A DNA stretch of 64,000 nt, taken from assembly GCF_000620865.1 (NCBI RefSeq), contig NZ_KK211190.1, positions 509,971 to 573,970 on the forward strand. The letters run 5' to 3'. Below the pieces are notes generated by a model that was not told where the DNA came from, did no database searches, and saw only the letters and a list, made by a program, of their open reading frames with translations. Positions 9,513 to 27,620 of this stretch are shown one piece after another. The first letter of the stretch is position 1. Every line of letters starts with the position of its first letter. Origin of the DNA: Exiguobacterium sibiricum 7-3 (GTDB lineage: Bacteria > Bacillota > Bacilli > Exiguobacteriales > Exiguobacteriaceae). Made by a program: the position numbers and the translations under genes.

Positions 9513-9918
9513 TGTCATGAATCGGGGATGATCACTCATGTGAGAATCCATCACTAAAATACACAATTTAATAATCAGGTCAGGATTTTTAGACCTTACT
9601 GACAAATGAGTCAGACATAAGTCATCGCTTTTATTTTGTCCTTCTTCTGTTTAGCTAGAAGAAGTTGACCCAGCAAGATAAACCTTCCATTCGATACTTT
9701 TCAGCTCATTCCGAGCGAAATTCTAAAAATCCCAGTAAATACGCAACCCAACGCGTAACTTGATTCTCGCTAAAACGCTTGATTCAGCTGGCGCGGCCAA
9801 GGAGCCGTAACAACGAAAGAGAGGTAGGGCTTTCGTCGTTTCAGGTGTTTTGATCACCTGTATCCTCGATTCTCATGACACCTAAAAACAGACACGCTGA
9901 TAAGGCGTTTTTTTTATG
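9513..9918 (+). ncRNA. Candidate ~400-nt structured RNA of unknown class
   Basis: This stretch lacks a credible ORF but is rich in complementary segments. There is an 8-bp hairpin 9641-9648/9657-9664. A 7-bp hairpin 9813-9819/9830-9836 encloses GAGAGGTAGGG and is extended by CGTT/AACG-type flanks. A 6-bp hairpin lies at 9842-9847/9855-9860. TGAGAATC near 9542 can pair with GATTCTCA near 9869 to close the whole domain. A short hairpin with an eight-T run (about 9893-9914) could end it. Together with the promoter at 9477 this suggests a stand-alone RNA or long leader. It does not match the conserved cores of RNase P RNA, tmRNA, SRP RNA, T-boxes or the common riboswitches as remembered. The structure is a reading by eye. 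Confidence 0.45.
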
Positions 9919-17340: not shown

Positions 17341-17358
17341 AAGTGTAAGATTTCGTAA

Positions 17359-17459
17359 CTTATCTCTCAGAATGAAACATTCTGTAGGATGTGGCACCGT
17401 TCCTTAAAGGTGGTTGCCGGACGTCGTTGGGCCTAATCCCTCGGTCGCTCTCGATAAGT
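17359..17459 (-). ncRNA. SAM-I (S-box) riboswitch
   Basis: The minus-strand sequence has the S-box core: CTTATCGAGAG at the 5' arm of P1, then GACCGAGGGATTAGGCCC, the GCAACC segment, an AAGGAACGGTGCCA-type region and closing GAGAGATAAG. The arms CTTATC and GATAAG form P1. A terminator follows, so binding of S-adenosylmethionine should stop transcription of metNIQ. It sits between the MtnE-like gene and metN. Confidence 0.95.
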
Positions 17460-17479
17460 AATTATGCTGTTGGGACTTA

Positions 17480-23423: not shown

Positions 23424-23969
23424 ATGCATACTCAATCCGATGAATCGCTTTATCATGAGATGCGCAGTGGAGATGAACAGGCTCTCGAAGTACTGTATGA
23501 GAAGTACGAAAGGCTATTGTTCTCATTCGCTCATCGCTTTACGAATAATGATCGTTTATCAGAGGAAGTCATTCAAGAAGTCTGGATGAAGATATGGAAC
23601 GGACGGGTCGATTTTAATACCGATAAAGGGAAGTTTTCCTCTTGGGTATTAACGATTACCCGCAATGCAGCGCTCGACTGTCTGAGACGTGAGAAACGCC
23701 AGCCGACGATTGAAGTCGAGGAGCGGGACGGCGGATATGATGAACCGGTCGAACGGACGGTCATCGAGCGTGAAACCGCATCTGAAGTCCGGGATGCCGT
23801 CAGTGAACTGAAACCAGATCAACAAGAGTTAATTGAACTCGTTTATTTTAAAGGAATGACCCAACAGCAAATCTCAGATCAGCTACATGTACCGCTCGGA
23901 ACGGTAAAAACAAGAATCAGGAGTGCCATCCAGGAACTCCGGAAAATATTAGACGGGAGGGAACGTTGA
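23424..23969 (+). CDS. ECF RNA polymerase sigma factor
   Basis: The 181-residue sigma-70-family ECF factor has region 2 (ALEVLYEKYERLLFSFAHRF, then SEEVIQEVWMKIW) and region 4 (helix-turn-helix GMTQQQISDQLHVPLGTVKTR) joined by an acidic linker. It directs RNA polymerase to stress-responsive promoters. AAGGAGG precedes the ATG. Its last codon overlaps the anti-sigma start (TGATG), the classic arrangement of an ECF factor with its cognate regulator. The RskA-like partner suggests a SigK-like group. The inducing signal and the regulon are unknown. Confidence 0.9.
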   Translation: MHTQSDESLYHEMRSGDEQALEVLYEKYERLLFSFAHRFTNNDRLSEEVIQEVWMKIWNGRVDFNTDKGKFSSWVLTITRNAALDCLRREKRQPTIEVEERDGGYDEPVERTVIERETASEVRDAVSELKPDQQELIELVYFKGMTQQQISDQLHVPLGTVKTRIRSAIQELRKILDGRER

Positions 23970-24730
23970 TGGAAGAACGTTGTCATGATTTAATCGACTA
24001 CTTCAACGGAACATTATCAGCTGCCGATCGCGACGCGTTCGAAGCACACTTGGCGACTTGTGATGACTGCAAACAGGCGCTTCAAGAGATGCAAGACTTG
24101 ATGCTACCCATCGCGGAATCACTTCCGGAACGGCCAATACCAACAGGCATGAAGTCACGGATTCTCGGTGAGGTCCTTGGATCAACGAATCAAGAAAGCG
24201 AACCGGGAACAGCACCGGCTTCGAAACCGGTTGTTCAGGAGACCGACCGCGTTTCTGAACTTGATGCAGCACGCTCGAAAAAAGATAAAAAACCTTCTGT
24301 GCCACTCGGTTGGCTCATGAGTATCGCAGCAGCCTTAATCCTGTCGCTTGGTGCCAACGCATACTTTCTTTCGCAAGACGAATCTTCTCCAGCGGAAGAG
24401 TTTGCGATGGACGAAGTCAAAGGAATGGGCAACTTTGAAAGTACGGCCTCCATCAAGGGTTCGAGTATGATTTTTACGAAAGATGATAAAGAGTTCATGC
24501 TTGTCCAACTGAAGGATTTACCGCCACTTAAAGAGGGCGAGTTGTATCAACTATGGACGATTCAAGGCGATACTCCTCGTGCAAACGGTGTAATCGAACA
24601 GGATGGAGAAGCAGCAGCCGTCTTCCCGGTAAAAGGAGATGGAACGATTGATGCGGTTGCGATCACGGTTGAACCGGAACCGGACTTAGAAAAACCGACC
24701 GGTGAAGTCGTTGCCTCCGTCACGTTATAA
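23969..24730 (+). CDS. Transmembrane zinc-type anti-sigma factor (RskA-like)
   Basis: The 253-residue membrane anti-sigma factor starts at the ATG overlapping the sigma stop. An N-terminal zinc anti-sigma fold has HLATCDDC (HxxxCxxC). After an acidic linker there is one transmembrane segment (WLMSIAAALILSLGANAYFL, about residues 113-132), then an extracytoplasmic RskA-type C-terminal domain with LPPLKEGELYQLW and AVAITVEPEPD. It should hold the ECF factor at the membrane until regulated proteolysis or zinc/redox change releases it. Confidence 0.9.
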   Translation: MEERCHDLIDYFNGTLSAADRDAFEAHLATCDDCKQALQEMQDLMLPIAESLPERPIPTGMKSRILGEVLGSTNQESEPGTAPASKPVVQETDRVSELDAARSKKDKKPSVPLGWLMSIAAALILSLGANAYFLSQDESSPAEEFAMDEVKGMGNFESTASIKGSSMIFTKDDKEFMLVQLKDLPPLKEGELYQLWTIQGDTPRANGVIEQDGEAAAVFPVKGDGTIDAVAITVEPEPDLEKPTGEVVASVTL

Positions 24731-24922: not shown

Positions 24923-26965
24923 ATGAATGAATGGATCACCTTAACGAAACACTATGAAGAGACATTGGTCATCCTATCGGTCATCGTCGCCATCGTTGGA
25001 TCCTATGCCTCACTTGAATTAAATCGCCGTTTGGCAAAAGCCGTATCTTTGAAAAAAAGAGCACTGTTTGTGTCCTCCTTGACGATGGGATTATCCATTT
25101 GGGGCATGCATTTTGTTGGGATGGGTGCGTTTGAATTGGCAGTACCGGTCAAATACGACTGGGTGTTGATGTTCTTATCAATCATTCCAGCCGTGACGGC
25201 TGCCTGGATTGCCTTTTATCTCTTATATTATTCAGAGCTGACGAGGAAAAAAGTCATCGTTGCCGGAACGTTAATGGGAACAGGAATTGCGATGATGCAT
25301 TATCTCGGAATGATTGCGATGCAGTTTGATGGGGATATCCGCTATGATGCGGCCTTATTCACGTTATCGATTGTGATTGCCATTACGGTCGCCTATGTCG
25401 CCCTCCTGCTGCTTTATGTGACGCGGCACGTCGATAAAAAACGAATTTTGATTCCTGTTGCGATTTTAATGGGATTCGGCATTTCAACGATGCATTATGT
25501 TGGGATGCTTGGTACGGCATTCTGCATTCCAAGTTCTTCAGGGATAGACATTACAGCCCGTCCCGTCACTTCAAACATATTGAGTGATGTGGCGGTTCCG
25601 GTCTTTTTAATCATTTTGTTGATCGTCGGACTGTATATTCACCTCGAGCGGCGCGCCTTACAGATGATGGCTTACACCGATCATTTGACAGGATTGCATA
25701 ACCGGCGTTGGCTGGATTATCATATGGCGAAAGTTGATGGACAATATAGCCGAACGAAAAAGCAGATGACGATGGCCTTGCTTGATCTGGACGGCTACAA
25801 ATGGATTAACGACACATTTGGATTTGATCAGGGAGATGCTGTCATTCGGCAATTTGCGGACCGGATTAAAGCGTTACTTCGAGAAGACGAGGCTTGTATT
25901 CGTTACAACGGTACGCAGTTTTTTCTGATTCAAAACATTGATCCTGATCTGTTGGAAGAGGCTTTTACGAATGTACTGGAAGCGATTCGACAACCGATTT
26001 TCCTCGACGGACAAGAGATTCATCTGACAGCGACAGTCGGAATCATCGTTCCGAACGAAGAGGATTCGCTGGAGATACGGATTGGTCAGATGGAAAGCGC
26101 CTTACGTGCTGGAAAAAATGAAGGCCGGGACCGTTTCGTCATCTATGATGAACTGCTTCATTCGGATCGTCGGGAACAACAAATTGTCGGATCCTTACGC
26201 CGGGCGATGACGGACTTTAAAGAATTTAATCTCGTCTATCAACCGAAAATCGCGTTGGCAACAGGGAAAGTGGAGCAGGCGGAAGTCCTGATTCGATGGA
26301 ATCATCCGAAATTTGGTTTCATTTCCCCGGCCGAGTTCATTCCGCTCGCTGAAAAATATAGTTTGATTCATCGACTGACCCAGTGGGTGCTGCAAGAAAC
26401 CGTCAAGCAGATGGAAGCCTGGCGGGAAGAGGACCACTTCATCCGTCAAGTCTCCGTCAATTTGTCGGCCATGCATTTCCGGTCGGAATCACATAACCTG
26501 ATGATTAAGGAAATCGTTCATCACTCGTTGAAGAATGGTGGAGAACTGCAGCTTCAGCTGGAAATTACGGAAACGTCTGTCATGGAGAACCTTGAACGGG
26601 CCTTGTTGATGCTCGGAGAATTGAAGCAATTGAGTTTAACGATTGCACTCGATGATTTCGGGACGGGTCTGTCCTCTTTGACCCACCTAAAGCATTTACC
26701 GATTGATATCTTAAAAATTGATAAGTCATTCATTGACGAAGTACCGCATGACGAGAGGGGAACAGCGATTACAGAAATGATTATCCAGCTTGCGAAGAGT
26801 CTCGGGATTGAAGTGGTGGCGGAAGGCGTCGAAACGCTTGAACAACATGAATTCCTGAAACGGCTCGGATGCGACTATGGACAAGGCTACTACTACAGCC
26901 GTCCCGTCAAGGTCAAGGATTTGGACCAACAGACAATCGAGCGAACCGTTTTGAATGTGGTCTGA
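24923..26965 (+). CDS. MHYT-GGDEF-EAL membrane protein, probable c-di-GMP phosphodiesterase
   Basis: The 680-residue protein has seven N-terminal spans carrying three MHYT motifs (MHFVGM, MMHYLGM, MHYVGM), a proposed copper/gas-sensing module. A GGDEF domain follows, but its catalytic motif is replaced by NGTQF although the upstream DLDGYKWIND is kept, so cyclase activity is unlikely. The EAL domain (about 425-670) has EVLIRW in place of EALLRW, ITETSVMEN, DDFGTGLSSL, the catalytic Lys in LKIDKSFI and AEGVET, so it looks able to hydrolyse c-di-GMP. It is a single gene. The degenerate GGDEF may act as a GTP or c-di-GMP regulatory site, as in other hybrids; this is inference. Confidence 0.9.
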   Translation: MNEWITLTKHYEETLVILSVIVAIVGSYASLELNRRLAKAVSLKKRALFVSSLTMGLSIWGMHFVGMGAFELAVPVKYDWVLMFLSIIPAVTAAWIAFYLLYYSELTRKKVIVAGTLMGTGIAMMHYLGMIAMQFDGDIRYDAALFTLSIVIAITVAYVALLLLYVTRHVDKKRILIPVAILMGFGISTMHYVGMLGTAFCIPSSSGIDITARPVTSNILSDVAVPVFLIILLIVGLYIHLERRALQMMAYTDHLTGLHNRRWLDYHMAKVDGQYSRTKKQMTMALLDLDGYKWINDTFGFDQGDAVIRQFADRIKALLREDEACIRYNGTQFFLIQNIDPDLLEEAFTNVLEAIRQPIFLDGQEIHLTATVGIIVPNEEDSLEIRIGQMESALRAGKNEGRDRFVIYDELLHSDRREQQIVGSLRRAMTDFKEFNLVYQPKIALATGKVEQAEVLIRWNHPKFGFISPAEFIPLAEKYSLIHRLTQWVLQETVKQMEAWREEDHFIRQVSVNLSAMHFRSESHNLMIKEIVHHSLKNGGELQLQLEITETSVMENLERALLMLGELKQLSLTIALDDFGTGLSSLTHLKHLPIDILKIDKSFIDEVPHDERGTAITEMIIQLAKSLGIEVVAEGVETLEQHEFLKRLGCDYGQGYYYSRPVKVKDLDQQTIERTVLNVV

Positions 26966-27002
26966 CAGCACATCAGCTCAATCCAACGCATCTCTTTTTA
27001 CG

Positions 27003-27213
27003 TATACTAGATAAGCACACGAGGAATATGTGTGCGAACATGGGGGACGCAATGGCTTCGTGAACAGATTCCGGGCAGGAATTTGTTCGACTTGTGCAAG
27101 ATGCAGACAGAATCGCCGTACATTTCGATAGTTGCTAAGCTCTCTACTCAATCCAGTACCTGTCTGTCCATCACACTACAAAGGCAGCTTTCCACGAGGG
27201 AAGCTGCCTTTTT
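27003..27213 (+). ncRNA. Candidate ~200-nt small RNA with own -10 box and terminator
   Basis: TATACT at 27003-27008 is followed by structured sequence without a credible gene. GCACAC/GTGTGC (27015-27020 with 27030-27035) forms a hairpin. An 11-bp hairpin lies at 27062-27072/27078-27088 with a GGGCA loop and one G-U. CAGACAG (27104-27110) can pair with CTGTCTG (27160-27166). It ends in a strong terminator (27181-27213). Size and layout would fit a 6S-like or other regulatory RNA, but no conserved core is recognised. The -35 region is weak. Confidence 0.45.
27181..27213. terminator. Terminator between the candidate small RNA and the YqkB-like gene
   Basis: AAAGGCAGCTTCC-type arms (AGGCAGCTTTCC with GGGAAGCTGCCT) enclose a short loop and are followed by seven T on the plus strand. 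The A run on the other flank lets it also serve the converging gene ending at 27222. Confidence 0.88.
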
Positions 27214-27221
27214 TTATCGTC

Positions 27222-27569
27222 TTACCGGTTGGCTGTCAATTGGCAGCCGGTCTGATCGGTAACGAGGACGTTCGTATTGAAATATTGACCGTCACTTTTT
27301 AAAATCAATGATTTTTTCTCTGCATTGTAGTCAAGTGTCATCTCCTGATCGAGAAAATGACTCGACCACCGTTTGACAAGGACGGGTCCGACATTTGAAT
27401 CAATCGTCATATCTTCATCCGTTGCGGCGGAGACGAGACGAATGCTGAAAATACCTGAGTTCCCGCATCCGCATCCTTCTGTATCGTAATACAGATGCAA
27501 TTGGCCTTCCGTATCACCACGTAATTGATCGATGCGATCAAGTGCAGCTTCTGTAAATGTAATCTGCAT
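27222..27569 (-). CDS. HesB/IscA-like iron-sulfur biogenesis-family protein (YqkB type)
   Basis: The 115-residue Fe-S_biosyn-domain protein has a CGCG segment (DTEGCGCGNSG) and one Cys near the C-terminus (QTGCQL). The canonical A-type carrier motif CxC near the end is not present, so it resembles the YqkB branch of unclear role rather than an IscA/SufA scaffold. The ATG at 27567-27569 is eight bases from AAAGGAG; a GTG three codons upstream overlaps that site. Likely cytoplasmic. It is followed by a terminator and preceded by the TspO-like gene on the same strand, 51 bases away. Confidence 0.78.
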   Translation of the reverse strand: MQITFTEAALDRIDQLRGDTEGQLHLYYDTEGCGCGNSGIFSIRLVSAATDEDMTIDSNVGPVLVKRWSSHFLDQEMTLDYNAEKKSLILKSDGQYFNTNVLVTDQTGCQLTANR

Positions 27570-27620
27570 AACATTCACTCCTTTGATACCAGTATACGAC
27601 GAATCAGGTAGAAAATAACG

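Follow-up and report, generated by a model that had tools for sequence, protein, structure and literature searches.

A conserved small RNA of Exiguobacterium, probably controlled by a neighbouring SigK/RskA-like ECF sigma factor system

Small RNAs (sRNAs) that depend on ECF sigma factors are best known from Enterobacteria, in which the sRNAs of sigma-E provide an activator with a repressing arm. The sRNAs RybB, MicA and MicL of Escherichia coli are driven by sigma-E, which NsrR is reported to dampen in that species (both according to the available part of PMC12249550). A second described system is SigK/RskA of Mycobacterium tuberculosis, in which SigK, a member of ECF18/19, keeps two cysteines (PMC7509140, available part). 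For Exiguobacterium, predicted sRNAs have been counted, and none is named in the available part of PMC10837837. Here we examine an intergenic element at positions 27003-27213 of a 64,000-nt stretch of Exiguobacterium sibiricum 7-3 DNA (hereafter the window), for which a small RNA of ~200 nt had been proposed from the sequence of this one genome. The explanation that we prefer, with a probability of about two in three for the whole of it, is an ECF-dependent sRNA under a SigK/RskA-like system that probably acts in trans. It builds on conservation, synteny, structure, promoter syntax and co-occurrence with an ECF/RskA pair, all of which can be read directly from the genomes.

A syntenic element in 18 Exiguobacterium genomes

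The putative small RNA (27015..27213, + strand, ~199 nt from a predicted start) follows the gene of an MHYT-GGDEF-EAL protein (24923..26965, +), and the convergent gene on its other side encodes a YqkB-like Fe-S biosynthesis domain protein (27222..27578, -). The features originally described in this gap are present. They comprise a TATACT box (27003-27008), two tight hairpins, which we locate at 27015-27035 (hairpin 1 or P1, + strand, seven pairs, 27015-27021/27029-27035) and 27062-27088 (hairpin 2 or P2, +, arms 27062-27072/27078-27088), a longer-range helix, and a strong intrinsic terminator (27180..27213, +; 27180-27211 with a T run). The long-range helix, P3, spans 27103..27167 (+) and has eight pairs, 27103-27110 with 27160-27167, with the predicted 7-bp CAGACAG/CTGTCTG as its core (27104-27110/27160-27166).

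Taken singly, this sequence makes a weak case for an RNA gene, and it is the comparison with relatives that makes the case. The fold of the whole RNA has a z of -4.18 (0/200 shuffles equally stable), which is owed mostly to the terminator. The single-sequence case is weak because the fold without the terminator is unremarkable (z -1.22, 15/200 shuffles equally stable), terminator-like sites are common enough in a region of this kind (1 found vs 1.1 expected), and the TATACT box is not listed by a sigma-70 promoter scan. The mean fold z over the 18 homologues is -1.27.

Conservation in related genomes, one of the checks suggested with the original prediction, is clear. In a search of 61 genomes the element was found in 18 of 19 Exiguobacterium genomes, in each of them between the MHYT and YqkB-like genes. 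The alignment takes in 18 of the loci L001-L022; L011 and L013 were omitted as the same genomes as L021 and L022, and L019 and L020 as chance matches in other families. Invariant columns make up 89 of the 215. Over the final 459 codons of the neighbouring MHYT gene, by contrast, one of 122 fourfold-degenerate sites is invariant, and genomes that keep the invariant RNA blocks match the window at only 38-46% of the MHYT fourfold sites.

Among the 38 genomes of the family, a covariance model of the element recovers 18 with E below 1e-39, these RNA-bearing genomes scoring 147-172 bits. Among 398 genomes of the class, searched with stricter filters, it recovers 18 and one further, weak match (G298, E 0.009, 20.4 bits). 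There is no match at E 1 in the 19 sister-genus genomes, and G008, the one Exiguobacterium genome without the RNA, reaches only 15.5 bits. Weak covariance matches at E 0.03-0.6 in four Exiguobacterium genomes, G002, G008, G009 and G012, were judged to be chance, as were short blastn matches in two class genomes. The suggested Rfam check gave no credible match to any family in the release searched. By sequence comparison the element is a new RNA family, known so far only from Exiguobacterium. Elsewhere in the window, Rfam models mark a SAM riboswitch (17357-17460, - strand, 84.6 bits) and a match to the BsrC sRNA (9764-9849, - strand, 70.1 bits, above the gathering score).

The size of the element had also been noted to suit a 6S-like RNA, whose conserved features were not recognised, and this idea did not hold up. 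The window has no Rfam 6S match at the gathering score, nor is there one at E 10 in 26800-27400. With 6S RNA (RF00013, BsrA/BsrB) the element shares a length of ~200 nt and nothing else: the covariance model is unmatched by it and the fold is different, with a local 5′ hairpin where 6S RNA has an end-to-end closing stem around a central bubble, and with a consensus that does not form one long bulged hairpin. We regard a 6S-like RNA that binds RNA polymerase as extremely unlikely.

The gap had been described as lacking a gene. Mechanical ORFs of 56-76 aa overlap it, and a search of both strands for ORFs of at least 30 aa finds none whose start and end coincide throughout the 18 homologues. ORFs lying within the RNA vary from one genome to the next, four of the 18 having none of at least 12 codons on the sense strand, and a sense frame of 76-77 aa with a constant start is open in some genomes and closed in others. 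A coding gene or peptide was rejected on the ground that no ORF, whether contained in the RNA or extending past it, is common to the 18.

A promoter at a fixed place

In front of the RNA, all 18 genomes have the syntax AATCC[A/G]-N15-CGTA at a single fixed spacing, with 17 nt from the end of the AATCC[A/G] hexamer to the -10 hexamer. In the window these are a -35 element AATCCA (26980..26985, +), of which AATCC stands at constant spacing in 18/18 genomes, a -10 element CGTATACT with an ECF-like CGTA (27001..27008, +), and a conserved discriminator AGATAA (27009..27014, +) that runs to the predicted start site at ~27015. The sixth -35 base is A in 17 genomes and G in G012. The -10 hexamer is TATACT in 16 of the 18, with TAAGCT and TATGCT once each, and GATAAG at the discriminator is invariant throughout. 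A second AATCCA at window positions 27150-27155, inside the RNA, is confined to four genomes, the window's own and the three most closely related to it (G004, G010 and G017), and has no CGT at promoter spacing behind it.

A -35 other than TTGACA, a CGT in the -10 and rigid spacing are the marks of an ECF-type promoter, which the one here resembles in its CGTATACT and its spacing. The TATACT box named in the original prediction is real, as part of a promoter that looks ECF-type at its -35 and spacing and not like one of sigma A.

The original prediction had named as its refutation an element that is only the 3′ end of the MHYT mRNA. In this case it would for the most part be 3′ UTR plus terminator of MHYT, and its structure would be kept for mRNA stability; the same promoter bears on this. 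The element lies within ~50 nt of the MHYT stop, and MHYT transcripts could still read into it, since a terminator scan finds no other terminator between the two. A promoter spacing fixed in 18/18 genomes is not expected on this explanation, nor are RNA blocks that stay invariant although the MHYT fourfold sites have diverged to the extent given above. Furthermore, G008 keeps MHYT and YqkB without the element, so the element is not merely the MHYT 3′ end; in that genome MHYT is followed by terminator hairpins only (read by eye). Given the fixed promoter and G008, we consider the 3′ UTR explanation very improbable.

A promoter at a fixed place, an intrinsic terminator, the lack of a common ORF and a sequence under selection are what an sRNA gene should have, and we are highly confident that the element is a real one. 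Of the predicted ~200-nt small RNA, the RNA itself is borne out by conservation, synteny, the missing shared ORF and the fixed promoter and terminator, and the 6S identity is not. The RNA would be a free-standing gene of ~199 nt, transcribed from its own promoter.

The ECF/RskA pair, and genes behind the motif

Three genes upstream of the RNA lies the gene of an ECF sigma factor (23424..23969, +; Pfam Sigma70_r2/r4; nearest structure SigK 4nqw), the proposed activator. Directly downstream of it, and adjoining it in all 18 genomes, is the gene of an RskA-like anti-sigma factor (23966..24730, +; PF10099 RskA_C plus zf-HC2). The best NCBIfam model for the sigma factor is PRK12519.1, at 134.8 bits vs a cut-off of 222, and the second is SigK, at 124.9 bits and short of its cut-off of 226. 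The protein has one cysteine in 181 residues. In general, each genome holds several sigma factors (8-10 PF04542 matches).

An ECF/RskA pair of the window's type stands at the locus in 18/18 RNA-bearing genomes. In G008 the order YceI, MHYT, YqkB, TspO is kept and the pair is absent from the locus, a comparison that comes from one RNA-less genome of the genus and possibly reflects a single event. An ECF factor 39-45% identical to the window's is encoded elsewhere in G008 and in 18 of the 19 sister-genus genomes (not in G023), and an RskA-like gene lies beside such a factor at 12/12 loci read. Of the window-type and the related ECF factor, every family genome searched apart from G023 seems to have one and not the other.

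Upstream regions of these related genes were read in G008 (L193) and in 11 of the 19 sister-genus genomes (L194-L204), where the pairs are 41-45% identical to the window's. ATCCR-N15-CGT precedes 11 of the 12 pairs, G028 being without it, which is what autoregulation by this type of ECF factor would leave. The motif has the same spacing there as before the RNA. It therefore most likely belongs to this type of ECF factor, and the RNA would then most simply be a target of the neighbouring one. In the explanation we prefer, the SigK-like factor would transcribe the RNA, and the RskA-like protein would hold the factor inactive until a stress signal.

The main competitor is a conserved sRNA that sigma A transcribes without any part played by the neighbouring ECF factor, AATCCA and the discriminator being bound by some other activator. 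Its -10, TATACT, agrees with the sigma-A consensus at 5/6 positions, and the 15-nt block CGTATACTAGATAAG, which the RNA promoter shares with that of mecA, is longer than a usual -10. Moreover, the window-type ECF gene lacks the motif upstream of itself (0/18) and has, where read, AAACGA-N15-CGTATACT instead. On the other side, the -35 shares only 2/6 bases with the sigma-A TTGACA, the spacing is rigid, and the same syntax recurs before the related ECF/RskA operons in all but one of the 12 upstream regions read. We hold sigma A with a separate activator to be unlikely, and control of the RNA by the ECF factor to be likely.

The motif was followed through the 19 Exiguobacterium genomes. The long form, AATCCA-N15-CGTATACTAGATAAG with at most three mismatches, gives 36 matches: 18 at this RNA, 16 immediately upstream of mecA and two elsewhere. 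The reversed control gives none. The mecA genes of G007 and G009 are missed by the long pattern and have a longer discriminator. The short form ATCYR-N15-CGT precedes the RNA in 18/18 genomes, and the short motif also lies upstream of mecA in all 18 RNA-bearing genomes. Before mecA of RNA-less genomes it is found in 0 of 12 read, namely G008 and 11 of the 19 of the sister genus, so that G008 is without both the RNA and the mecA motif. The discriminator likewise precedes mecA, in most but not all genomes; at L031 1480-1540, for example, the mecA promoter is the same as that of the RNA, with the discriminator AGATAAG. In the window's genome mecA lies downstream of spx.

In a spacing control, spacing 11 peaks besides 15, before mecA (18/18) and in 7/18 RNA regions, owing to a CGT that is repeated there (CGTTCGTA). 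The remaining forward spacings give at most 4, and on the reverse strand spacing 16 gives 8/18 in the RNA set.

An exact search for ATCCA-N15-CGTATA in the 19 genomes gives 52 matches vs 9 for the reversed control, and 15 of the 52 are this RNA. At 19 of 30 such loci inspected the match overlaps an ORF of at least 70 aa, a few of these being the RNA itself with a mechanical ORF on the opposite strand. Single sites include L235 988-1013, 41 nt before an acetyltransferase-like ORF, with similar sites in G004 and G017, and a site in front of a small-protein gene. In G008, locus L066 carries a match with two mismatches.

NsrR-like genes, reached through a less strict pattern, form a further group with the RNA's -10 element. 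The motif is present at 7 of 9 Exiguobacterium loci over diverged spacers; the nine come from 16 loci in total, the window's own genome is not among them, and the gene at locus L251, with an identity of only 38%, is possibly a different one. ATCCA-N15-CGTATRCT stands ~135-165 nt before the start codon of the NsrR-like (Rrf2 family) gene at L237, L238, L239, L241 and L244. Four of the nine genes were compared with the NCBIfam models. All four score highest against NsrR, below its cut-off (124-146 vs 182 bits), and all four pass the Rrf2 superfamily cut-off. The link to NsrR here consists only of the promoter motif before an NsrR-like gene.

We tentatively suggest, at less than even odds, a SigK/RskA-type stress pathway with a very small core regulon, in which the RNA would be the most conserved product, joined by mecA and in some species an NsrR-like gene. 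MecA is presumably the ClpC adaptor. If this is true, a single signal would feed into the RNA, proteolysis and perhaps nitric-oxide sensing, and the RNA and the sigma gene would form a co-inherited module flanking MHYT.

Structure, a candidate seed and relation to known circuits

Across the 18 genomes, compensatory changes occur at two pairs of hairpin 1 and at one pair of the terminator. The cells of the alignment that should pair do so in 99.4% of cases vs 97.1% in shuffles, and 20 cells are changed on both sides vs 6.3 (0/500 shuffles as high for either), while slid registers pair only 32-52%. Three pairs show double changes, which is nothing out of the ordinary (119/500 shuffles as high), and additional pair types are rarer than in shuffles (9 vs 10.7; 500/500 as high). 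P3 is formed in 18/18 genomes with 100% of cells paired, and seven of its eight pairs never vary, hence covariation gives it no support. A hairpin occurs at the place of P2 in 17 of the 18, its sequence differing between subclades, and G011 folds otherwise. The consensus fold has three separate helices, none of which joins the ends of the RNA.

The RNA would thus combine a stable 5′ hairpin, a G-rich stretch GGGGGACGCAA and a strong terminator. GGGGGACGCAA (27042..27052, +) is invariant in 18/18 genomes and unpaired in the consensus; in single-sequence folds it is partly paired, for example in a CGUC/GACG hairpin in one subclade. It is a candidate seed that most likely would base-pair with target mRNAs, and granted the rest of the explanation we think that the RNA probably acts in trans by such pairing. 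The sigma factor would gain an arm that lowers expression, while mecA, and in some species the NsrR-like gene, is raised.

A search for target mRNAs by exact complements of GGGGACGCAA in four genomes and by duplexes with 50 window ORFs found none. The complements occur at 10 places outside the RNA vs 5 for the reversed control, and 8 of the 10 are antisense to an ORF of at least 100 aa. The single site that recurs, in G000 and G011, lies antisense to an ORF of 727 aa and not at a translation start. In G001 one site lies 43 nt before a start codon, in an apparent terminator hairpin, and none of the sites in the other three genomes corresponds to it. Against the 50 window ORFs, the best duplex energy of the seed is -21.0, which does not beat the mean best of shuffled seeds (-22.2).

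That no target mRNA was found, and that several invariant blocks are spread over the RNA, would also suit an RNA with a protein as its partner, which serves as a titrator or scaffold and does not pair with mRNA. No protein-binding motif was recognised in it. A GGA loop motif marks CsrA ligands, and the GGA loop is missing from hairpin 1 of G011, G012 and G014. A CsrA sponge was rejected for this reason, and protein binding of any kind appears improbable to us beside pairing in trans.

Among described systems, SigK/RskA of M. tuberculosis (ECF18/19) contains the nearest solved relative of the sigma factor by sequence (SigK, 4nqw), and here too the RskA_C anti-sigma partner is encoded directly downstream. 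The SigK promoter, which we take to be CCATCC-CGTA, agrees with the Exiguobacterium motif; a SigK promoter consensus was not found stated in the literature searched. The systems differ in that the regulon here would hold the RNA, mecA and an NsrR-like gene, and in that SigK keeps a cysteine pair (PMC7509140, available part) whereas the Exiguobacterium factor has only one cysteine. If our explanation is true, it would define the regulon and the signal of a SigK/RskA-like system outside Actinobacteria. A conserved ECF-dependent sRNA encoded beside its sigma and anti-sigma factors in a Firmicute would lend itself well to testing, since a promoter motif and a genome naturally lacking the RNA are available.

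The Exiguobacterium RNA is about twice as long as RybB, MicA and MicL. Unlike these sigma-E sRNAs, to which it has no sequence relation in Rfam, it lies beside its own presumed sigma gene and in a Firmicute host. The likeness is in the arrangement, an sRNA under an ECF factor that is held by an anti-sigma factor, as in the sigma-E system, on which RybB, MicA and MicL depend (PMC12249550, available part). Hence, what is new here is the RNA family, and the kind of circuit in which we place it is one already known.
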